The position numbers and the translations under genes are program-made. Below, piece by piece: positions 35,564 through 50,818 of a stretch of 64,000 nucleotides of DNA (within the stretch, counting starts at the first letter, position 1; each line of letters opens with the position of its first letter). Source of the stretch: Peptococcaceae bacterium (GTDB lineage Bacteria; Bacillota; Peptococcia; Peptococcales; Peptococcaceae); the NCBI GenBank assembly GCA_017547685.1, contig JAFYPD010000019.1, forward strand, positions 1 to 64,000, written 5' to 3'. The notes under the pieces were generated by a model. It did not search any database. It saw only the letters and a program-made list of their open reading frames with translations, and was not told the DNA's origin.

Positions 35564-36517
35564 TTGAATCTTTTATCGTTAAAATATGCTGTAACGGTGG
35601 CACGATGCGGTTCCATCAGCGGCGCGGCAGAGCAGCTGGCCATGAACCAGCCGAATTTGAGTAAAGCAATCAAAGAACTGGAAAGTTCGCTGAATATGAC
35701 GATTTTTCAGCGCACCTCGACCGGTGTGATTCCAACACCGCAGGGCGTGGAGTTTCTGGATTCTGCACGGCATATTCTGCAGCAGATTGAAGAGCTGGAG
35801 GACCGGTACAAATCGGAGGACAAGCGCAAGGTTGCGTTTTCGGTTTCGGTGCCCCGGGCCAGCTATATCACCTATGCCTTTGCTGATTTTGCCAACAGTC
35901 TGAACAGCATCGGTGAGTTTGAATTGAACTTTATGGAGACCAACTCTATGGAGGCCATCCAGAATATCAGCCGGAAAGGCTATACCATGGGCATTATCCG
36001 CTATCAGTCTGAGTATGATGCGTATTTTCAGAAAATGCTGCAGGAAAAACGGCTGCAGTCTGAATTATTGTGGGAATTTGAGTATCAGGCACTGATGCCC
36101 GTGCGCAACTCACTGGCCGGAAAGCAGAAAATCAGTTTAGAAGATTTAGTTCCGCTGACCGAGATTATTCACGGCGACTGGGATGTGCCGTTTATCCCGT
36201 CTGATGAACAGGAGCAGATTCTGTCGGTTCCCAATCAGAAAAAGAAAGTGTATGTGTATGAGCGGGGCAGCCAGTTTGATTTGCTGCAGAGTATTCCGGA
36301 CAGCTTTATGTGGGTATCACCGGTTCCCGAGCAGTTATTGCGACGGTATCAGCTGGTTCAGCTGGGCTGCAGCGAGATGGCGGGCCGCCCGTTCCGCGAT
36401 GTGCTGATCAGCCCGCAGGGATATCGGTTCAGTAACGTGGAAAAAGGCTTTATCCAGCGGGTGAAAGATGTGCGGGATGCGCTGAATGATCTGTATGGGC
36501 CTCTGCCATGGTCATAG
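35564..36517 (+). CDS. LysR-family transcriptional regulator
   Basis: 317 aa, TTG start at 35564 behind GAGGTGGAAG. HTH: LLSLKYAVTVARCGSISGAA and NQPNLSKAIKELE. The remaining ~230 residues are a type 2 periplasmic-binding-like effector domain. It is not closely related to LysR1-3 (different N-terminus and effector domain). It is divergent from nadA and has its own promoter and terminator. It could act on the nad operon or on itself; the target is unknown. Confidence 0.9.
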   Translation: MNLLSLKYAVTVARCGSISGAAEQLAMNQPNLSKAIKELESSLNMTIFQRTSTGVIPTPQGVEFLDSARHILQQIEELEDRYKSEDKRKVAFSVSVPRASYITYAFADFANSLNSIGEFELNFMETNSMEAIQNISRKGYTMGIIRYQSEYDAYFQKMLQEKRLQSELLWEFEYQALMPVRNSLAGKQKISLEDLVPLTEIIHGDWDVPFIPSDEQEQILSVPNQKKKVYVYERGSQFDLLQSIPDSFMWVSPVPEQLLRRYQLVQLGCSEMAGRPFRDVLISPQGYRFSNVEKGFIQRVKDVRDALNDLYGPLPWS

Positions 36518-36639: not shown

Positions 36640-36669
36640 TTTTCAGGAAAATAGTAGTATTATTATAAT
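36640..36669 (+). promoter_or_regulatory. Probable promoter of the hydrogenase operon
   Basis: TTTTCA (36640-36645), 18 bp and TATAAT (36664-36669), 49 bp before the first gene. Confidence 0.5.
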
Positions 36670-36717
36670 ATGTGTAGATATTCACAAATAAGAGGGCGTA
36701 CAAGGAGAAATGAAATT

Positions 36718-36960
36718 ATGGAAATCACTATTTGTATCGGGAGTTCCTGTCATCTGAAAGGTGCCAGAGAAATTGTATCGAAACTGGAAAAAATAATAGA
36801 AAAATGCGAATTGTCCAATCAGATTCATTTAAAAGGTGCATTCTGCATGGGAAAATGCAGTGTGGAAGGTGTCAGTGTAAAAGTAGAAGATGAATTATTT
36901 TATTTGAAACCGGAAAATGTGGAGCAGTTTTTTCAGGATGAAATTTTACGGAGACTGTAA
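36718..36960 (+). CDS. Thioredoxin-like [2Fe-2S] ferredoxin domain protein (NuoE/HydC-like)
   Basis: 80 aa, ATG at 36718 behind CAAGGAGA. A single thioredoxin-like 2Fe-2S fold with four Cys in the pattern CIGSSCHLKGA ... FCMGKCSVEG. It is similar to the cluster domain of NuoE/HoxE but lacks the N-terminal helices, so it is a minimal version. It starts an operon with a sensory hydrogenase (2 bp gap), a SpoIIE-type phosphatase and a second hydrogenase. Likely role: electron carrier to or from the hydrogenase proteins. Confidence 0.85.
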   Translation: MEITICIGSSCHLKGAREIVSKLEKIIEKCELSNQIHLKGAFCMGKCSVEGVSVKVEDELFYLKPENVEQFFQDEILRRL

Positions 36961-36962
36961 AA

Positions 36963-38693
36963 ATGAAAGTAATCGGATTTGAAGCTGCGCAGTGTAAAAA
37001 CTGCTATAAATGTGTTCGTACCTGTGCTGTAAAAGCTATTGAAGTAAAAAACGGACAGGCACAGATTCTGGATGATCAGTGTATTCTCTGCGGACGCTGT
37101 ATGGAAGTCTGTCCGCAAAGTGCAAAAAAGTTTGTCAGTGATTTAGATAAAGTAAAATATTATATTCAAAATCATGAACATGTGATTGCTTCGCTGGCGC
37201 CGTCTTATATGGTTGCGCTGGAGCACCATCATCCGGGTCAGGTTGCGGCAGCATTGAAACAGCTTGGATTTACACAGGTTCGGGAAACATCGGAGGCTGC
37301 TGCTTATGTAACAGGCGAATATGCCCGTCTGGTGCAGGAAGGGAATATGAAAAATATTATTACATCCTGCTGTCCAAGTGTGAATGACCTGATTGAACTT
37401 TATCATCCGGAACTGGCCGAATATGTGGCCCCGGTTATTTCACCGATGATTGCCCATGGTAAAATGCTGCATGAAGAACTTGGCAACAATATGCGTGTTG
37501 TGTTCATTGGTCCTTGTATTGCAAAAAAACGAGAGGCGGAAATTGACAGCAGAACCAATGGATATGTGGATGCGGTAATTGATTTTGTGGAACTGGAAGA
37601 ATGGCTGGAGGAAGCGGGAATTGATTTGCTTTCGTGTAAACCAGGCCGGATGGATAATCGCAATCCGAAAATCAATCGGCTGTATCCTGTCAGCGGCGGT
37701 ATTTTATCGGCTGTGAAAGCTGCTGCCGGTACTCATACCTATAAAACAATTATGGTGCACGGGCTGGATGATTGTATCTCACTTTTAGAAAGTATGAAAA
37801 AAGGAGAACTGGAACACTGCCTGATTGAAATGAGCGCCTGTCGGGGAAGCTGTATTGAGGGGCCGGCAATTGCGCATCGAAAACATTCTCGTTTTCTGAA
37901 AAAAATTACGATAGAAGAACTGGCAGTTAACGAATCTGAGCAGCCGAAAGACTTTCCGAAAAAACCGGAAGGATATTTTTCCCGGGAGTTTCATGACCGT
38001 TCTCAAACAGTTCTGATGCCGACAGAAGAAGAAATACGAGAAATTCTTCGAAAAATCGGTAAAAACACAGAAAAAGATGAACTGAACTGTACTGCCTGCG
38101 GCTATCCGTCCTGTCGGGAAAAAGCCATTGCGGTGTATCAGGGGAAGGCCGAGCTGACAATGTGTATGCCGTATATGCAGGAACAGGCTCGTTCTATGGC
38201 GCGTACGATTATGGACAAGTCCCCGGATGCGATTCTGGCTGTGGACTCTGATATGCGCATTGTAGAATTTTCCAAAGCGGCGGAAGTCTGTTTCGGGAAA
38301 ACGCGCAGAGAAGTAAAACATAAACCATTGCGTGATCTGATTTCAGACAGTGATTTCCGCCAGGTTTACCGGAGTCACAATAATATTTACGGAAAAAAAG
38401 TATATGATCCGCACTATCAGCTGTATATGATTCAGGATATCATCTATATGGAAGAACAGGATAGTGTACTCGGGCTGTTCCAGAATATCACGGAAGAAGA
38501 ACTGAAAAAGAAACAGCAGTATGCGCTGAAACTGGAAACAGTAGAAATGGCGCAGGAGGTAATCGACCGGCAGATGATGGTGGCACAGCAGATTGCCAGT
38601 CTTTTAGGGGAAACAACAGCAGAAACAAAAGTCAGCCTGACAAAGCTGCGTAATATGATTCTTACCGATGAGGAAAAACTGGAGCAGACATGA
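36963..38693 (+). CDS. Sensory [FeFe] hydrogenase with PAS domain (group C, HydS-like)
   Basis: 576 aa, ATG at 36963. Domains in order: two [4Fe-4S] ferredoxin clusters (CKNCYKCVRTC, CILCGRCMEVC, residues about 15-60); an H-cluster domain with TSCCPS near residue 134, FIGPCIAKKREAE and the atypical third motif MSACRGSCIEGP; an extra Fe-S domain (CTACGYPSCREKAI, about 376-405); and a C-terminal PAS domain (MDKSPDAILAVDSDMRIVEF, from about 417). This layout matches group C, phosphatase-linked, putatively H2- or redox-sensing hydrogenases rather than a bulk catalytic enzyme. The stop is followed one base later by the phosphatase start. Confidence 0.9.
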   Translation: MKVIGFEAAQCKNCYKCVRTCAVKAIEVKNGQAQILDDQCILCGRCMEVCPQSAKKFVSDLDKVKYYIQNHEHVIASLAPSYMVALEHHHPGQVAAALKQLGFTQVRETSEAAAYVTGEYARLVQEGNMKNIITSCCPSVNDLIELYHPELAEYVAPVISPMIAHGKMLHEELGNNMRVVFIGPCIAKKREAEIDSRTNGYVDAVIDFVELEEWLEEAGIDLLSCKPGRMDNRNPKINRLYPVSGGILSAVKAAAGTHTYKTIMVHGLDDCISLLESMKKGELEHCLIEMSACRGSCIEGPAIAHRKHSRFLKKITIEELAVNESEQPKDFPKKPEGYFSREFHDRSQTVLMPTEEEIREILRKIGKNTEKDELNCTACGYPSCREKAIAVYQGKAELTMCMPYMQEQARSMARTIMDKSPDAILAVDSDMRIVEFSKAAEVCFGKTRREVKHKPLRDLISDSDFRQVYRSHNNIYGKKVYDPHYQLYMIQDIIYMEEQDSVLGLFQNITEEELKKKQQYALKLETVEMAQEVIDRQMMVAQQIASLLGETTAETKVSLTKLRNMILTDEEKLEQT

Positions 38694-38694
38694 T

Positions 38695-39867
38695 ATGAAA
38701 TGTAATGTTGATATCTCGTATAAAAGTTTGAATAAACGCAATGAGGAATTGTGCGGCGACCATGTTGAAGTATGGAAAACAGGAAATTCTACCATCATCA
38801 TACTGGCAGACGGGATGGGAAGCGGAGTAAAGGCTAATATTTTATCCACACTGACAGCGAAAATTCTTGGAACCATGCTTTACAATGGCTCTGCTCTGGA
38901 TGAATGCGTGGAAACCATTGCAAAAACACTGCCAATTTGTCAGACCAGACAAGTGGCATACTCCACGTTTACAATTTTACAGATTTATGACAGTGGTGAA
39001 ACATACATTGTTGATTTTGACAGTCCCGGATGTTTGTTTTTACGGGATGGGAAGCTGCTGGACCTGCCTTTTTATGAATGTGAAGTAGCCGGAAAACTGG
39101 TGAAAGAATGCAGAATCTATGCCCAGGCCAATGACTTGTTTATTCTGATGAGCGATGGCGTAACACATGCCGGAGTCGGTCAGTTCTGTGATTTCGGCTG
39201 GGGGCTGGAAGGCGCTTCGCAGTATGTTGCAGAACATTTTGCAGCAAACAGCAATCCGTCACGTGTGACAGCCGGATTGACCGAACACTGCAGAGACCTT
39301 TATCAGCAAAGCCCCGGAGATGATACAACGGTGGCAGCAATTAGAGTGATTGACAAAAAACCGGTAAAAATTTTTACCGGCCCGCCATCGAATCATGCTG
39401 ACGATGAGAAAATTGTAACTGAGTTTATGCAGCTGGACGGCGCAGCCGTTATTTGCGGCGGTACCAGTGCCAATATCATGTCTCGTGTTTTGCAGCGGCC
39501 TCTGGAAGTTTCTCTGGAGTATTTCAGTGCCGATGTTCCGCCGATGGCAACGCTTGAAGGATTTCAACTGGTAACAGAAGGAATTGTCACACTGAACCGT
39601 GTACTGCAGCTGCTTCGGCAATATAATGAAGGAAATATCAGCCAGACGTTTTTTGCCGAGCTGGATCAGCAGGATGGCGGTGCCCGGCTGGCACGTCTTT
39701 TAATTGAGGACTGCACAGATTTAACCCTGTTTGTTGGAAAAACCATCAATGCTGCATATCAGAATCCAATGGTGCCCTTTGATTTTAATCTGCGGGTTGC
39801 ACTGATTGAACAGCTGAAAGATGCCGTTCAACAGGCCGGTAAAAATGTATCGGTCACATATGTATAA
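38695..39867 (+). CDS. SpoIIE/PP2C-type serine phosphatase linked to the sensory hydrogenase
   Basis: 390 aa, ATG at 38695 just after the hydrogenase TGA, with GGAG upstream. The N-terminal ~215 residues form a PPM/SpoIIE phosphatase: IIILADGMGSGVKAN, VDFDSPGCLF, LFILMSDGVTHAG and PGDDTTVAAIRV supply the metal-binding aspartates. The C-terminal ~165 residues form a separate domain without a named family, containing ICGGTSANIMSRVL. The order hydrogenase-phosphatase suggests that redox or H2 state sensed by the PAS-hydrogenase is passed to protein dephosphorylation. The substrate is unknown. Confidence 0.88.
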   Translation: MKCNVDISYKSLNKRNEELCGDHVEVWKTGNSTIIILADGMGSGVKANILSTLTAKILGTMLYNGSALDECVETIAKTLPICQTRQVAYSTFTILQIYDSGETYIVDFDSPGCLFLRDGKLLDLPFYECEVAGKLVKECRIYAQANDLFILMSDGVTHAGVGQFCDFGWGLEGASQYVAEHFAANSNPSRVTAGLTEHCRDLYQQSPGDDTTVAAIRVIDKKPVKIFTGPPSNHADDEKIVTEFMQLDGAAVICGGTSANIMSRVLQRPLEVSLEYFSADVPPMATLEGFQLVTEGIVTLNRVLQLLRQYNEGNISQTFFAELDQQDGGARLARLLIEDCTDLTLFVGKTINAAYQNPMVPFDFNLRVALIEQLKDAVQQAGKNVSVTYV

Positions 39868-39893
39868 ATGGAATCAGAAAAGGGGAAATAACA

Positions 39894-41348
39894 ATGCTTA
39901 CGAAAGACGCAACAATTGTTGAGGTAAAACATGAGGTATTATACCACGTTGCGCAGCATGCCTATGCTGGTGATTTAGAGGAAAAACGGGAACAGATTCC
40001 TTACGATATTATTCCTGGACCGCAGGCGAACTTCCGTTGCTGTATCTATAAAGAACGGGAAATTGTACGCCAGCGTATCCGGGTTGCGGAAGGCCGTTCC
40101 CCGATTCAGGATAAAGAAAACCGTAATATTGTACAGGTTGTGGAATCTGCCTGTGAAGGCTGCCCGATTAATCGTTATGTGGTAACGGATAACTGCCAGC
40201 GCTGTATGAGTCGTAAATGTCAGCAGGCATGTAAATTTAACGCAATTTCTATGCAAAAAGACAAAGCCGTGATTGATACACAGTTGTGCAAAGAATGCGG
40301 GAAATGTTATCAGGCATGTCCGTACAATGCCATTGCAGACTTAATGCGGCCATGCAAACGCAGCTGCCCGGTAGATGCCATTAAAATGGACGAAAATAAA
40401 GTAGTTGTCGTAGATGAAGAAAAATGTATTCATTGCGGTCAGTGTATTAAAAACTGTCCGTTCGGTGCTATTATGGACCGTTCCTTTATGGTCAGCGTTA
40501 TCAATCTGATTAATGAAGGATTACCGGTATATGCAATGATTGCACCGGCAGGGGAAGGCCAGTTTGGTAATTTCTCCATGGCAGATTTACGTGACGCTGT
40601 AAAACAGCTGGGATTTGCAGACATGTACGAAGTTGCTCTGGCTGCCGATATGGTTGCTGACAGTGAAGCCAGAGAGTGGCTGGAAGCCTACGGGGAAGGG
40701 AAAAAGATGACCACTTCCTGCTGCCCGGCGTTTGTAACCATGATTGATAAACATTTCCCGCAGCTGAAAGAGCATGTATCTACCACAGTTTCCCCGATGG
40801 CTGCTATGGCTCGATATATTCGTGCGAAACATCCGGGTGCAATCACAGTATTTATCGGGCCGTGCATTGCTAAAAAACACGAAGTACTGGAGTCTCTGAC
40901 CCAGGAAAATGCGGACTATGCCTTAACATACGAGGAACTGGATGCAATGCTGCGGGCCAGAAATGTCACCCTGCAATCCTCTGATGCTGTTCTTCAGCAG
41001 GGCAGTATTTACGGGAAAAAATTCAGTGCCTCCGGCGGTGTAACGGCAGCCGTTGTTAAAACATTCCAGGAAATGAACGTTTCTGCAGATGTGAACGTTG
41101 CACAGTGTAACGGTGCAGCAGAATGTAAAAAGGCACTGCTGATGATGAAAGTCGGCAAACTGCCGGAAGATTTCATCGAAGGGATGGTTTGCGAGGGCGG
41201 CTGTGTAAACGGCCCGGGCAGTATCAAACCGGAGATGCAGAGCCGCAAAGACCGGCTGGCTCTGTTCAGCAAAGCAGATAACCGCGGCATTTTAGAAAAT
41301 ATTGCACCGCATTATGATAGTATTAAAATTTCACTGCATAGAAAATAA
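39894..41348 (+). CDS. [FeFe] hydrogenase, group B-like
   Basis: 484 aa, ATG at 39894 behind AAAAGGGGAA. The N-terminal ~110 residues include a Cys-rich segment (CEGCPINRYVV, CQRCMSRKCQQAC). Ferredoxin-like clusters follow (CKECGKCYQAC, CKRSC, CIHCGQCIKNC). The H-cluster domain has TSCCPAF (near residue 273), FIGPCIAKKHE (about 320) and EGMVCEGGCVNGPG (about 430). TSCCPAF and GPCIAKK instead of the canonical MPC motif point to the group B (M2-like) enzymes of Clostridia. It follows the phosphatase by 26 bp and is the probable catalytic partner of the signalling genes. Confidence 0.92.
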   Translation: MLTKDATIVEVKHEVLYHVAQHAYAGDLEEKREQIPYDIIPGPQANFRCCIYKEREIVRQRIRVAEGRSPIQDKENRNIVQVVESACEGCPINRYVVTDNCQRCMSRKCQQACKFNAISMQKDKAVIDTQLCKECGKCYQACPYNAIADLMRPCKRSCPVDAIKMDENKVVVVDEEKCIHCGQCIKNCPFGAIMDRSFMVSVINLINEGLPVYAMIAPAGEGQFGNFSMADLRDAVKQLGFADMYEVALAADMVADSEAREWLEAYGEGKKMTTSCCPAFVTMIDKHFPQLKEHVSTTVSPMAAMARYIRAKHPGAITVFIGPCIAKKHEVLESLTQENADYALTYEELDAMLRARNVTLQSSDAVLQQGSIYGKKFSASGGVTAAVVKTFQEMNVSADVNVAQCNGAAECKKALLMMKVGKLPEDFIEGMVCEGGCVNGPGSIKPEMQSRKDRLALFSKADNRGILENIAPHYDSIKISLHRK

Positions 41349-41495: not shown

Positions 41496-41551
41496 ATATA
41501 ATATAGTGTAACGATGCCAAAGGTATGATACAAACAAAAGGAGGCAGCATT

Positions 41552-41926
41552 ATGGATTATAAAATTTCAGACAGTGAATGGCCTGTGATGCAGGTTTTGT
41601 GGGAACACGGCCCGTTGACCCAGCCTCAGCTGATGCAGTGTCTGAGCCGGGAGTGGAACAAAAACACCGTGCATACCTTTCTGACCCGGCTGCAGAAAAA
41701 AGGGCTGGTGGATGTGGTGAAAACCTGCACACCTCATCAGTACAGCGCTGCTGTAAAGCGGGAGGATTGCGTGTATCAGGAGAAACAGAGTTTTTTAAAT
41801 AAAGTGTACCAGGGTTCTGCTGGAAAGCTGGTATCGTCCTTTCTTCAGGACGGTGATTTATCTGCGCAGGAGATTGCTGATTTGCGCAGACTGCTGGACA
41901 GCATGGATGATACTGCACAAAGATAA
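41552..41926 (+). CDS. BlaI/MecI-family repressor
   Basis: 124 aa. The ATG at 41552 is preceded by AAAGGAGG; an in-frame ATG at 41525 lies before it and is rejected. Winged HTH: ISDSEWPVMQVLWEHGPLTQ and NKNTVHTFLTRLQKKGLVD, followed by a helical dimerisation domain (EKQSFLNKVYQGSAGKLVSS). It should bind the two dyads upstream and be inactivated through the membrane metalloprotease encoded 12 bp downstream. Target genes beyond this operon are unknown. Confidence 0.93.
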   Translation: MDYKISDSEWPVMQVLWEHGPLTQPQLMQCLSREWNKNTVHTFLTRLQKKGLVDVVKTCTPHQYSAAVKREDCVYQEKQSFLNKVYQGSAGKLVSSFLQDGDLSAQEIADLRRLLDSMDDTAQR

Positions 41927-41938
41927 CAGGAGGTGCCT

Positions 41939-44053
41939 ATGTATAATATCTGGGATTTTTTCAATTTTACACTCAGCACCACCATCGTCGGCCTGTTTCT
42001 GCTGCTCATCAAAGCGCTCTTTCACGATAAACTGACCGCCCGCTGGCATTATCTCATCTGGATCGTACTGCTGGTTCGCTTACTGGTTCCGTCCGGCAAT
42101 ATGATTATCACATCGCCGTTATCCCTGCTGGGCAGTTTTCAGTTCAGCCAGCGTATGGCCCTGTGGCAGATGAACATGGAGCAGAATCTGCAGTCTCTGT
42201 TCAGCAGCCCGTATACAGCATTTGATACTGGCATTTCATCCGGTCAGATGACACAGTGGCAGAACTTTTCGATGACCGACTGGCTGTTTGTACTTTATAT
42301 TGCCGGTGTCGTACTGCTGAGTATCTTTTATCTGGCTGTGTATGTCAGCCTGCGTTATCGGATTGGCCGCGGACTGCCGGCGGATGATTCTCTTCAGATG
42401 CTGGTGCAGAACACAGCAGCGCAGTATCGTATCAAATCCTGCCGGGAGATTCGCATCTGCCAGGGATTTGACACACCTTTTGTGTGCGGGCTGATTCGCC
42501 CTGTTCTGGTCATCCCGGCGCAGATGGCTGACAGCATGGATGAAAAAATGATTCTCCACGAGCTGCTCCATGTGCAGTACAAAGATGTGCTGATTAATTT
42601 TGTTATCCATGCCGTTCGGATTCTGAACTGGTGCAATCCGGTGATGCGGCTGATTCTGAACCGCATTCAGAACGACAGCGAGGCGTTCTGTGACCAGCGG
42701 GTGCTGGAGCGCATCGAAAAAGAACAGTACAAACAGTATGGCAATTTATTATTAGACCTGGCCCGCAGCAAATATCCAACGGTGGTTGGCACAACCAGTA
42801 TGGCCAACGGAAAACGAAACATCAAACGCCGATTAAAACGCATTGTGGATTTCAGCCATGTGCCGCAGGGGAACGGTGTAGCCGCCTGCTGTATTACGCT
42901 GCTGCTAACCTTATCCTGCGTGGCCAATGCCACAGTGCCGGAACCGGATTTCGATACCAGTGTTTCCGACAGCGCAAGTATGGAACGGATGCTGAAAAAC
43001 GCGCAGCTGTATCAGGTACAGACACCGGAAGAAGCGGTGAACATTTTCTGCCGGGCGCTGGAAGATGCCAATATGGGTTATATGGCGCTGGTTGTTCCGC
43101 CCGATGAATGGGACAGCTATAAACAGTGGGTGCGGGACATCGGAAAGACAGGCGAAGATTCCTACACTGCAGTTCTTGGCGAGCGGGCATTTGAAGATGG
43201 CGAACGGCCCATTACCAATGAAGACGGCACCTATGCGTTCACCTATCGGGATTTGCGCAAAACAAATCCATATTTCTTTTTTGCCGACGGTACTCTGTAT
43301 CGACCGGTGAAATGGTCAGAAATTGGAGATAGATGTATCATTCAGAATTTATATCAGATAGATGAAGCCACCTGGCGCTGTCAGGCGATCTGGGATGTAC
43401 AGGACTTTTCCGGGATTGAGAGCAGATATTTTGATTTGCAAATCAGCAAAACCAATGACTGGAATATTGAGATTCTCAGCGTGCAGCAGGTGAAGAGTCC
43501 AGCCGGGTTACAGAATATTCCGGACGGTTTACAGAATTTTCAGACGGACAAATGGCCTGTACTGGCAGAGCTGACCAGAGAGCATGACGGATATCGGATT
43601 ACCGTACAGCAAAGCAGCGAAGGAACTTTCGATAATCTACGCTGGGGATATGGTACGATGCTGTTCGGGGGTGAGTCGACAGTAGACACCTTCCAGCGTG
43701 AACTGGATAATGCCTGTAAAATCACTTCGATTGTAGTGAAATCGGATAAAATTGTAGAAAAAGATACTTTATACGAAATCGTATTCCTTCCATCCCGGGC
43801 AGAGGAAGACGAAATTATGGAACAATGTAAACCAGCTGTTCCGGGGAAATCAGTGAGCAGCGATTCCTGGAGTTATCATTGTGTACTGGTACGCGAAGGA
43901 AATCGTCTGGGTGAAGTGCAGACCGGCTTTGGTACCAGCGGCTACTGGAGCAAAGCGGATTTGACACAATACTATCGTGTGATTATCTATGAAAATGGTG
44001 TAGTAAAAAGCAGAATGTTTTTACCGCAGGAGGCGATGCTTTATGACAGATAA
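41939..44053 (+). CDS. BlaR1/MecR1-like M56 membrane metallopeptidase with C-terminal sensor-like domain
   Basis: 704 aa. ATG at 41939 with AGGAGG five bases upstream; a GTG at 41933 overlaps that site. N-terminal transmembrane helices (FFNFTLSTTIVGLFLLLIKA; WHYLIWIVLLVRLLV) and another near residue 120 surround the M56 peptidase domain with HELLH (207-211) and the downstream Glu (NDSEAFCDQ). A further helix (GVAACCITLLLTLSCVANA, about 320) leads to a ~370-residue extracellular part. This is not a penicillin-binding domain: it lacks SxxK-type motifs, and starts EEAVNIFCRALEDANMGYM. The ligand is therefore not necessarily a beta-lactam. Confidence 0.88.
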   Translation: MYNIWDFFNFTLSTTIVGLFLLLIKALFHDKLTARWHYLIWIVLLVRLLVPSGNMIITSPLSLLGSFQFSQRMALWQMNMEQNLQSLFSSPYTAFDTGISSGQMTQWQNFSMTDWLFVLYIAGVVLLSIFYLAVYVSLRYRIGRGLPADDSLQMLVQNTAAQYRIKSCREIRICQGFDTPFVCGLIRPVLVIPAQMADSMDEKMILHELLHVQYKDVLINFVIHAVRILNWCNPVMRLILNRIQNDSEAFCDQRVLERIEKEQYKQYGNLLLDLARSKYPTVVGTTSMANGKRNIKRRLKRIVDFSHVPQGNGVAACCITLLLTLSCVANATVPEPDFDTSVSDSASMERMLKNAQLYQVQTPEEAVNIFCRALEDANMGYMALVVPPDEWDSYKQWVRDIGKTGEDSYTAVLGERAFEDGERPITNEDGTYAFTYRDLRKTNPYFFFADGTLYRPVKWSEIGDRCIIQNLYQIDEATWRCQAIWDVQDFSGIESRYFDLQISKTNDWNIEILSVQQVKSPAGLQNIPDGLQNFQTDKWPVLAELTREHDGYRITVQQSSEGTFDNLRWGYGTMLFGGESTVDTFQRELDNACKITSIVVKSDKIVEKDTLYEIVFLPSRAEEDEIMEQCKPAVPGKSVSSDSWSYHCVLVREGNRLGEVQTGFGTSGYWSKADLTQYYRVIIYENGVVKSRMFLPQEAMLYDR

Positions 44054-48106: not shown

Positions 48107-48155
48107 GATAGTATCTGATGTTTGATGTCATCTGTGATTGAAAGGAGTCTGGTGT

Positions 48156-48854
48156 ATGGCTGCAGCGGGCGGTAGCAATATTGGATTACGAAAAAACAAC
48201 GAAGACAGTTATTATATCAACGACGATTGTAAACTGCTGGCCATTGCCGACGGCATGGGCGGGCATGAGCACGGACAGCTGGCCAGCCGGATTGCCGTGG
48301 AGCAGTTTGTCAGTCTGGCGGAGGGGCGGTGTCCCGAATCGTTTTCGCTGGAACAGATGAAGGCCATGTTTGTACAGGCCAACCGGGCCGTGTACAAAAA
48401 ACAGGAGGCGCTGCACAGCGGCATTATGGGCACTACACTGACTGCTGTTCTCATCGATGAGAATCAGATGTATGCCGGTCATGTGGGCGACAGCCGGCTG
48501 TATCTGCTGCGGGATAACATACTGACCCAGCTGACACTGGATCACTCTTATTACGCAGAACTGCTGCGTCAGGGCAGTCTGGACATTCCTCTGGAAAACC
48601 GGCAGAAACATGTGCTCTTAAAGGCACTGGGCCCGGAAGAACAGGTAGACGGCCAGTTTCTGCAGGAAACATTATCTGCAGGGGATATGCTGCTGCTCTG
48701 TACCGACGGGCTGTATAATTCGGTGCAGGAGGCTGAAATGCATCACGTGATGCAGAATAATACCCTGCCGGAAGCGGTGGATCAATTGATTCATCTGGCC
48801 TTGGAACGCGGGGCCACCGATAATATTACGGTAGTCGTTTACCGGCATGATTGA
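48156..48854 (+). CDS. prpC: PP2C-family serine/threonine phosphatase (PrpC/Stp)
   Basis: 232 aa. The ATG at 48156 follows AAAGGAG; a TTG at 48138 lies before that site. Metal-binding motifs of PPM phosphatases: NNEDSYYIND, LLAIADGMGGHEHG, AGHVGDSRLYLL, LLLCTDGLYN and ATDNITVVV. It reverses phosphorylation by the PASTA kinase encoded 11 bp downstream. The pair controls cell-wall and translation targets in Bacillota. First gene of the operon with rsgA and rpe. Confidence 0.96.
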   Translation: MAAAGGSNIGLRKNNEDSYYINDDCKLLAIADGMGGHEHGQLASRIAVEQFVSLAEGRCPESFSLEQMKAMFVQANRAVYKKQEALHSGIMGTTLTAVLIDENQMYAGHVGDSRLYLLRDNILTQLTLDHSYYAELLRQGSLDIPLENRQKHVLLKALGPEEQVDGQFLQETLSAGDMLLLCTDGLYNSVQEAEMHHVMQNNTLPEAVDQLIHLALERGATDNITVVVYRHD

Positions 48855-48865
48855 GAGGTGATGGT

Positions 48866-50818
48866 ATGGTAGCCAAACGTATACTTGCAAATCGCTATGA
48901 GCTGATCCGCAAAATCGGAAGCGGCGGCATGGCTGTGGTGTATCAGGCCTACGATACATCACTTGACAGAACAGTTGCAATCAAATTACTGCGGGATGAA
49001 TATGCAGACGACCCCGATTTCACCCGCCGGTTTCAGAAAGAAGCCCAGGCGGTTGCCCGGCTGTCGCACCAGAATATCGTAAACATTTATGATTTCGGGG
49101 AGAGCGACGGGGTAGCCTATCTGGTGATGGAATATATAGAAGGCAGCACCCTGAAAGAGCTGATTGCCCAGAACGGGCCGCTGCCGGTAGGCCAGGTTAT
49201 CGATTACGGCATTCAGCTGTGCTACGGGATGGCCCAGGCCCACGACCACGACATTGTGCATAAGGACATCAAGCCGCACAATATTATGGTGGATCACAAT
49301 CATACGGTGAAAATCACTGATTTCGGCATTGCACAGGCCATGAACAATCTGACCATCACCCACAACAAGGGCATTCTGGGTTCGGCCCATTATTTTTCGC
49401 CGGAACAGGCCCGCGGCGATATGGTCGATTTTGAAACTGATATCTATTCACTGGGCATTGTACTGTACGAGATGCTGACCGGCAAAGTGCCGTTTACCGG
49501 AGAAAATCCGGTCAGTGTTGCGCTGAAGCATATGCAGGAAAAACCACAGAGTTTAACCCAGCAGCGTCCCGATGTGCCGCAGGCACTGGAACGGATTATT
49601 TTCAAGGCGCTGGAAAAGAAACCGATGTATCGCTTTAAGAGTATGCAGGAGATGGCCGATGCGCTGATTGGCCTGCAGCTTTATCTGGAGGAGAAGGGAT
49701 ATTTCCAGAACGAGCCGGTACTGACCGCCGCGGAGAAAAACTATGTGGAGCCGCAGGATCTGGAAACCGATATGATGACCCGTAAAAAATCCTACAGCCG
49801 GGAACAGCTGAACGACCACACCCGTGTGATGGATTATGAATCTATACGGGAGACAGACCGGGACGGAAAGCGCCGCGGAACCCGAAAGACCAACCGGAAG
49901 AATGTTCTGATTCTGGTAATCGGGGCCATCACACTGTTTCTGGGCACCATGTGGATTGTGCAGGCGGTGATGGGCAGCGATGAGGTTGCAGTGCCGGATT
50001 TACAGAATAAAACGGTGTTAGAGGCAGAAAAACTGCTGAGTGATGTGTCGCTGAAAATTCTGGTGGAAGACGAGATTCACGATGACACCATCGAGAAAGG
50101 CTATATTATCAGTCAGCTGCCGAAAGCAGACACAAAAGTGAAAGAGGGCCGGGAGATTACCGTTATAGTCAGTCTTGGCTCCAGCGAAACAGCTGTGCCG
50201 GATCTGAAAGGCAAAACCGAGCAGGAGGCACGCATTGCGCTGGAAAATGAGGGGCTTTCCCTTGGAACCGTCACACTGGTAACCGACACAAGTCATCCTC
50301 CGGGTGTTGTGGTGTATCAGTCAGTAGAAACAGGCACAACAGTGAAATCGGGAATCACAGTGGATGTGATGCTCAATGACCCGAACACGGAACAGGAACC
50401 GGCAACAACAACCGTGCCGTATCTTACCGGGAAAACACTGGAGGAAGCACTCCGTGCGCTGGAAGCTGCTAAACTGCAGTCTGGTGCTGTAACACAGGTG
50501 AGCAGTACAGAATATGCTTATAACTATGTGGTAAGCCAGCAGGCGGCGGCAGGAAGCAGTGTGAGTGAAGGAACCGCTGTGGCCTTTTCGGTCAGCACCG
50601 GGCCTGGACCGCAGAAATCGGCCCAGTTTGATTTAATCATTCCAAAGGACGGCAGAGTTGTGGTAACCTTAACCGATGCTGTCGGCACATCGGTGCTGTA
50701 TCAGAAAGACTGTGCAGCCGGTGAACGGCTGGAGCAGTCATTCCTGTATCATGGCAGCGGAACGGTAACCATCACCTGCAACGGGGAAGAAATCTGGAGT
50801 AAAGTGTATGAGTCTTAA
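48866..50818 (+). CDS. prkC: PASTA-domain serine/threonine protein kinase (PrkC/Stk1)
   Basis: 650 aa, ATG at 48866 with GAGGTGATGG upstream. Cytosolic kinase domain (residues about 10-275): glycine-rich IGSGGMAVVYQA, VAIKLL lysine, catalytic loop HKDIKPHNI (HKD instead of HRD) and DFGIAQAM. A basic juxtamembrane region, one transmembrane helix (about 346-370, VLILVIGAITLFLGTMWIV) and three extracellular PASTA repeats (about 374-440, 442-510, 513-580) follow. An ~65-residue C-terminal beta domain ends the protein. PASTA repeats bind muropeptides. It overlaps rsgA by 11 bp. Confidence 0.96.
   Translation: MVAKRILANRYELIRKIGSGGMAVVYQAYDTSLDRTVAIKLLRDEYADDPDFTRRFQKEAQAVARLSHQNIVNIYDFGESDGVAYLVMEYIEGSTLKELIAQNGPLPVGQVIDYGIQLCYGMAQAHDHDIVHKDIKPHNIMVDHNHTVKITDFGIAQAMNNLTITHNKGILGSAHYFSPEQARGDMVDFETDIYSLGIVLYEMLTGKVPFTGENPVSVALKHMQEKPQSLTQQRPDVPQALERIIFKALEKKPMYRFKSMQEMADALIGLQLYLEEKGYFQNEPVLTAAEKNYVEPQDLETDMMTRKKSYSREQLNDHTRVMDYESIRETDRDGKRRGTRKTNRKNVLILVIGAITLFLGTMWIVQAVMGSDEVAVPDLQNKTVLEAEKLLSDVSLKILVEDEIHDDTIEKGYIISQLPKADTKVKEGREITVIVSLGSSETAVPDLKGKTEQEARIALENEGLSLGTVTLVTDTSHPPGVVVYQSVETGTTVKSGITVDVMLNDPNTEQEPATTTVPYLTGKTLEEALRALEAAKLQSGAVTQVSSTEYAYNYVVSQQAAAGSSVSEGTAVAFSVSTGPGPQKSAQFDLIIPKDGRVVVTLTDAVGTSVLYQKDCAAGERLEQSFLYHGSGTVTITCNGEEIWSKVYES

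Follow-up and report, generated by a model that had tools for sequence, protein, structure and literature searches.

Sensory [FeFe] hydrogenases have been proposed to determine which organisms produce H2, ethanol or acetate, and how the signal leaves these proteins is an open question. It is raised by a locus in a 64,000-nucleotide stretch of DNA from a Peptococcaceae bacterium (assembly GCA_017547685.1, contig JAFYPD010000019.1, positions 1 to 64,000 of the forward strand; referred to here as the window), in which four tightly packed genes at 36718–41348 lie on one strand in the order [2Fe-2S] protein, PAS-containing [FeFe] hydrogenase (HydS), SpoIIE-type phosphatase and group B [FeFe] hydrogenase. 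A preliminary description of this DNA had recognized the four genes in tight succession, all of which are present as described, and had proposed that H2 or redox state controls protein dephosphorylation and perhaps the adjacent enzyme. As a whole, that proposal is partly supported by the analysis reported here.

Comparison across bacteria suggests that HydS and the phosphatase form a fixed unit, and that gene sets of this kind often have a connection with Rex, a repressor that senses NADH. With a probability of about one half, we consider the operon to be a phosphatase module that senses H2 or redox state, coupled to a ferredoxin-type hydrogenase, with HydS switching the phosphatase in trans and Rex gating transcription. 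The fixed pair, an unnamed C-terminal domain of the phosphatase, an invariant HydS tail and the link to Rex are new from the computation, and are more interesting than the operon itself. They narrow the targets of the phosphatase to a short testable list, with Thermoanaerobacterium being genetically tractable.

The HydS–phosphatase pair across Bacillota

In the window, HydS (576 aa; 36963–38693, plus strand) is an HfsB-like putative H2 or redox sensor, and is followed on the same strand by the phosphatase (390 aa; 38695–39867, with its ATG start at 38695); the intergenic spacings within the operon, from the gene coordinates, are 2, 1 and 26 nt. This four-gene order is found in three of the eight genomes of the genus that were searched, so the arrangement is not due to chance, and the order HfsA-like [2Fe-2S] protein, HydS, phosphatase, group B hydrogenase is also present at loci L008, L009 and L010. 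L010 (CAKMKH010000030.1, titled Acholeplasmataceae), in which LysR, Rex and kinase genes lie upstream, comes from a record assigned to Mycoplasmatota, reflecting either inter-phylum transfer or a binning error.

We surveyed 398 Bacillota genomes at least 85% complete, and found the C-terminal domain of the phosphatase in 125 of them. Among the matches listed (150 domain copies, with one matching genome, G047, left out), 142 copies have a HydS tail on their own strand, 0.9–1.7 kb upstream; conversely, 141 of the 147 strong HydS tails listed, taken above the gap between E values of 2.5e-45 and 1.9e-24, have the domain downstream. Of the 150 listed copies, 34 are close to a group B hydrogenase, a comparison that used the 81 group B matches above cut-off. 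The eight unpaired domain copies comprise three that resemble contig-end effects or split contigs (G230, G380, G290), four free-standing copies, and one in genome G025. HydS and the phosphatase are therefore a near-obligatory pair in Bacillota. No clear fusion of the two was seen by eye in the open frames of the domain and tail matches.

Neighboring genes were compared at 94 loci from 49 families: 90 of the 142 HydS-linked copies were chosen, one per genus and partner class, and the 88 that were fetched were combined with seven earlier loci to give 95, from which L132 was removed. (An earlier family scan covered 47 of 89 same-strand neighbors, those left out being mostly repeats of C75-type loci.) The catalytic hydrogenase near the pair is of group B alone at 25 loci, HydCBA at 41, both at two and neither at 26, and an HfsA-like homologue is present at 60; the gene order of the window is thus common, but not the rule. 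A kinase adjoining the pair was ruled out as a general rule, such genes occurring in three families only. The genome of the window itself encodes a second HydS–phosphatase pair (L055; G000:C75:7919-10746) with a 2Fe-2S protein upstream and SHCP as its first H-cluster motif, and neither a catalytic hydrogenase nor a Rex gene is nearby.

The HydS tail and the phosphatase C-terminal domain

HydS has N-terminal 4Fe-4S (Fer4) domains and matches to PF02906 (195 bits), PF04060 (40.8) and PAS (38.1), with all three H-cluster cysteine motifs present (TSCCP, GPCIAKK and EMSACRGSC). The PF04060 domain at residues 374–403 is followed by PAS at 414–471, which corresponds to the M2f architecture, defined by a C-terminal [4Fe-4S] domain and then a PAS domain (PMC13104023). 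When HydS is aligned with the clostridial enzyme CpI, the positions of CpI C299, M353 and M497 are occupied by C136, G183 and S291, the last within EMSACRGSC. Sensory enzymes differ from CpI at these positions, 17% of them retain the cysteine, and the Thermotoga sensory enzyme TmHydS has a serine (S267) at the M497 place that tunes the H-cluster (PMC10055695). The atypical third motif to which the preliminary description drew attention accordingly reads, in this alignment, as a recognized sensory trait, and the cysteine at the first place as a rarer state; among 16 aligned HydS proteins the C136 position is histidine in nine (including the second HydS of the genome), alanine in one and cysteine in six (including that of the window).

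The preliminary description had placed the PAS protein in group C, and had named H-cluster phylogeny as a check. The M2f domain set and the joint encoding of HydS and phosphatase, as in the definition of group C3, are in agreement, and in a maximum-likelihood tree of 34 H-domain regions the 16 HydS proteins fall on one side of a branch (support 95/88), apart from ten group B and six group A enzymes. Group C is thus not refuted, but the tree contains no labeled group C reference and places HydS as 'not A, not B' rather than as 'C'. Long branches lead to a CheA-fused protein (L024) and to L025, whose 'group D-like' label rests on the absence of a PAS domain.

Outside the cluster-binding cysteines, the most conserved part of HydS is its C-terminal tail (residues 533–566; 38559–38660, plus strand), a candidate docking or output element with the pattern VIxxQMxVAQxIAxLLGETTAETK in 16 of 16 aligned rows; I544, A545, L547, L548, G549, E550, T551, T555 and K556 are invariant. 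The pattern precedes 23 of 30 phosphatases, and in the other seven there is a HydS model match upstream (five), a contig end (one), or the gene is that of G025 (one).

The phosphatase has a PF07228 match (54.2 bits) across residues 32–219, followed by about 160 residues without a Pfam match, as had been anticipated in describing it as SpoIIE-type with an extra domain. Its PP2C aspartates D40, D155, D210 and D211 are invariant in 15 homologues, and the best structural match of its model is SpoIIE 5mqh (Foldseek E 1.7e-13; profile search E 3e-14). The PP2C fold and metal-site aspartates are common to SpoIIE and RsbU (PDB 5mqh, 5ucg), which are regulated via an N-terminal region (PMC5468089, PMC12143880). 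Unlike these, the window phosphatase has no N-terminal regulatory region – only some 17 residues precede its first conserved block, and the match to the SpoIIE phosphatase domain begins at profile position 2–5 – and it carries a C-terminal domain of no Pfam family. Because the phosphatase is the one nearly constant gene partner of HydS and is without the SpoIIE/RsbU N-terminal region, we infer from the sequences that the tail docks on the phosphatase.

The C-terminal domain (39376–39864, plus strand) gave nothing better than E 0.02 when 15 members were scanned against Pfam, and a profile search of the PDB gave a best E of 0.81. Its model, made with four sequences, has a low mean pLDDT of 69.3, and Foldseek returned no structure at E 0.001 or better. 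The top VIA-align matches were 6s6y_F, from a formyltransferase/hydrolase (107 aligned, rmsd 3.5, Z 7.9), and NuoG of complex I (7awt_G; 109 aligned, rmsd 3.4, Z 7.3), but a Z below 8 perhaps reflects a common arrangement alone, and no fold was drawn from either. By eye, the frames that hold the domain are mostly of 380–405 aa, representing the same two-domain phosphatase. In four genomes of one genus (g119; L117–L120) the domain stands alone, at 153–159 aa, directly behind HydC-HydB-HydA-like genes, and each of these genomes also has a HydS-paired copy; a second HydCBA-like set follows the free-standing domain.

Rex linkage and possible clients of the phosphatase

Comparison of the genes near the 94 HydS genes, made without a prior list, shows that, core genes and hydrogenases apart, the neighbor cluster with the widest distribution is Rex (PF06971 with PF02629). 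It is present at 38 of the loci and in 26 of the 49 families, with all 39 copies on the HydS strand, where 0.6–1.2 copies would be expected by chance for one or two Rex genes per genome. By partner class, Rex is found at 9 of 25 loci with group B, 23 of 41 with HydCBA, one of two with both and 5 of 26 with neither. AdhE is among the neighbors in seven families, and genome G183 (L128) has, in succession, 2Fe-2S, HydS, phosphatase, 2Fe-2S, group B, Rex and AdhE. Among the open-licence papers listed in literature searches, none came up that reports rex genes linked to the pair. In Caldicellulosiruptor, Rex is reported as a repressor of [FeFe] hydrogenase genes (PMC6391272).

Rex-like sites are likewise enriched upstream. 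Excluding four loci at contig ends and nine with upstream regions shorter than 60 nt, 34 of 81 operons, from 22 families, have an upstream site that fits the consensus at 12 or more of its 14 positions, versus 10 of 246 control regions of similar GC and length (Fisher 1.9e-15). When 40 scrambled palindromes were used in place of the motif, the mean was 1.3 operons and the maximum 16, the latter with a near-copy of it. In the window, the Rex-like operator ATGTGTAGATATTCACAA (36670–36687, no strand assigned; 12 of 14) lies directly after the TATAAT -10 box of a promoter-like TTTTCA-18-TATAAT sequence (36640–36669, plus strand; 10 of 12 consensus positions). It is the only match with at most two mismatches in the 64-kb window, and its right half, TTCACAA, is kept in the sister loci L008 and L009. 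With up to three mismatches the window has 15 matches versus 13.6 by chance, which is uninformative in bulk, and promoter-like sites as good as this one number 21 in the region versus 13.5 +/- 3.9 in shuffles, making the promoter weak evidence alone.

In the module that we favor, the H-cluster and Fe-S relays of HydS would read H2 or the redox state of ferredoxin, and the signal would pass from the C-terminal Fe-S domain through PAS to the invariant tail, which would dock on the phosphatase encoded one base downstream. HydS would in this way provide, in trans, the control that is built into SpoIIE/RsbU-type phosphatases in cis, with the C-terminal domain helping to position the phosphatase on its client. 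NADH-sensing Rex would gate transcription through the promoter site, and the operon would have two redox inputs: NADH setting the amount of sensor and hydrogenase, and H2 setting phosphatase activity.

The genetics of the Thermoanaerobacterium hfsABCD operon agree with a regulatory role of the PAS hydrogenase. In T. saccharolyticum the ethanol yield rose about 1.8-fold, and adhE expression also rose, when hfsA or hfsB was deleted, whereas deletion of hfsC or hfsD did not raise the yield (PMC5707799, PMC11837493); deletion of rex also raised the ethanol yield (PMC5886521). Several observations weigh against the module, however. Expression of rex was up, not down, in the high-ethanol hfs mutants, and Eminoglu et al. 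disfavored a simple Rex route (PMC5707799). Exposure to 1 atm H2 did not reduce the C-terminal [4Fe-4S] cluster of TamHydS, a relative from group D (PMC13104023), which argues against electron transfer to that cluster as the signal. The site in the window is imperfect, the rex gene of the genome (C1) is unlinked to the operon, no good Rex-like site precedes the second HydS of the genome (L055) or L010 (9 of 14 each), and 47 of the 81 operons are without a site at 12 of 14. Finally, the phosphatase of G025 has no HydS and adjoins a DUF3810 gene, and the HydS of L065 has no adjoining phosphatase.

Rex and the catalytic hydrogenase are candidate clients of the phosphatase. It is possible, if doubtful, that the catalytic hydrogenase (or AdhE) is itself the substrate, with the C-terminal domain of the phosphatase docking on the hydrogenase for post-translational control. 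The free-standing domain behind HydCBA genes in four genomes of one genus is consistent with this, as is the catalytic hydrogenase near the pair at 68 of 94 loci; at the other 26, including L055, none is nearby, and the neighbor is therefore not the sole client, if it is a client at all. We know of no phosphosite in catalytic hydrogenases or AdhE, which counts against such a role. In T. saccharolyticum, deletion of hfsB altered NADH-dependent ADH but not ALDH activity, which its authors ascribed to possible post-transcriptional control (PMC5707799), but hfsD over-expressed alone, without hfsABC, gave a high-ethanol phenotype (PMC5707799, PMC11837493).

It is rather unlikely that Rex is the client, with phosphorylation tuning its DNA binding or NADH response and the HydS-linked phosphatase removing the phosphate. 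No other regulator is encoded alongside the pair as widely as Rex, and an APH/RIO-like kinase gene – a candidate antagonist of the phosphatase – lies directly upstream of hfsA, encoding the 2Fe-2S protein, at L010, L130 and L156, which represent three families and have Rex nearby in each. The kinase is restricted to these families, however, the linkage is explained equally well by Rex as transcriptional repressor of the operon, and no report of Rex phosphorylation was seen among the open-licence papers listed in literature searches.

SpoIIE-type phosphatases are known to act in partner switching, and the phosphatase could act on a pair of STAS anti-anti-sigma factor and RsbW/SpoIIAB-type kinase, such that H2 controls an alternative sigma factor. 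The genome does have SpoIIAA/SpoIIAB-like genes (C46), a phosphatase adjoining a STAS gene (C62) and a HATPase_c_2 protein (C63). We regard this too as rather unlikely: the C62 STAS gene already adjoins a phosphatase of its own, and neither STAS nor RsbW is among the 16 identified of 34 listed neighbor clusters, the other 18 (three or four families each) being unnamed and short divergent proteins being able to escape the clustering.

A fuller scheme, distinctly unlikely when taken whole, is a split H2-sensing phosphatase in which the tail would replace the missing cis region and the C-terminal domain would dock on catalytic [FeFe] hydrogenases (or Rex), with H2 resetting how far the machinery that produces H2 is phosphorylated and Rex resetting its amount; within this scheme, the domain copies that stand alone behind bifurcating-hydrogenase genes would provide the same dock without a phosphatase. 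A chiefly catalytic role for HydS, as a slow hydrogenase that uses HfsA as its electron partner and signals only to a minor extent, is very unlikely. The retained proton-transfer cysteine C136, found in only 17% of sensory enzymes, and a 2026 suggestion that HfsABC may form a functional hydrogenase (PMC13277313) speak for it; against it are the near-obligatory phosphatase partner, the invariant tail, the activity of TmHydS A131C, which was not raised (PMC10055695), and the raised hydrogenase activity after hfsB deletion (PMC5707799).

Flanking genes and comparison with known systems

The first gene of the operon (36718–36960, plus strand) encodes an 80-aa HfsA-like thioredoxin-fold protein, a PF01257 member (27.8 bits, cut-off 24.8) with the cysteine pairs CIGSSC and CMGKC, in line with the minimal 2Fe-2S protein first noted there. 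An alternative ATG start lies at 36670, and the start conserved in two sister species is 36718. The last gene (39894–41348, plus strand; 484 aa) encodes a monomeric enzyme whose group B assignment is firm (TIGR04105 'FeFe_hydrog_B1', 601.8 bits versus a cut-off of 450); a group B hydrogenase has been reported as the main H2 source in the human gut (PMC12578642). The HydF maturase needed for H-cluster loading is encoded in the genome (569 bits), and no RNA families were found in the operon region.

Upstream, a LysR-type regulator (35564–36517, plus strand; PF00126, 67.7 bits) is probably a member of the locus. The LysR proteins of L010 and of the sister species at L008 share 41% identity, members of the cluster are present at 6 of the 94 loci (five families), and no LysR gene adjoins the operon in the sister locus L009. 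Just downstream, on the strand of the operon, is a pair encoding a BlaI-type repressor and an M56 (BlaR1-like) peptidase (41525–44053); the operons of the sister loci L008 and L009 are without a following gene pair of such sizes. About 7 kb downstream (48138–50818) lie genes for a PP2C phosphatase and a PASTA-type Ser/Thr kinase, PrpC/PrkC-like by sequence, and this kinase could act generally on the proteins that the HydS-linked phosphatase serves. Elsewhere in the genome, the group A [FeFe] hydrogenases of L003 (G000:C30) and L004 (G000:C103) have an N-terminal twin-arginine motif and a lipobox-like cysteine, and may be exported lipoproteins.

The window operon is an ordinary member of a published operon type, represented by hfsABCD, by HydS/HydA2 and by group C3 of HydDB. 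The hfsABCD operons of T. saccharolyticum and T. thermosaccharolyticum contain four genes, with HfsB a PAS [FeFe] hydrogenase, HfsC a serine-phosphatase homologue and HfsD a ferredoxin-linked hydrogenase (PMC5707799, PMC11837493), and a Rex site is predicted upstream in T. saccharolyticum (PMC5886521). The window locus differs in having a LysR gene upstream and in coming from a Clostridia metagenome-assembled genome of another lineage; HfsA is described in print as poorly alignable, and the likeness of the first protein to it is putative. In Ruminococcus albus, HydS/HydA2 comprises a group C PAS sensory hydrogenase, a Ser/Thr phosphatase and a ferredoxin-only hydrogenase, and is H2-regulated (PMC6776011); that cluster includes an alcohol/aldehyde dehydrogenase and a hydrogenase called group A1, where the window has a group B enzyme. 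In an earlier genome survey, bifurcating hydrogenases were described as preceded by PAS sensory hydrogenases, the two being 'often separated by a histidine/serine kinase' (PMC3561251), and [FeFe] group C3 of HydDB, 'phosphatase-linked (putative)', combines an H2-sensor-like hydrogenase with a Ser/Thr phosphatase, as in the window (PMC5037454).

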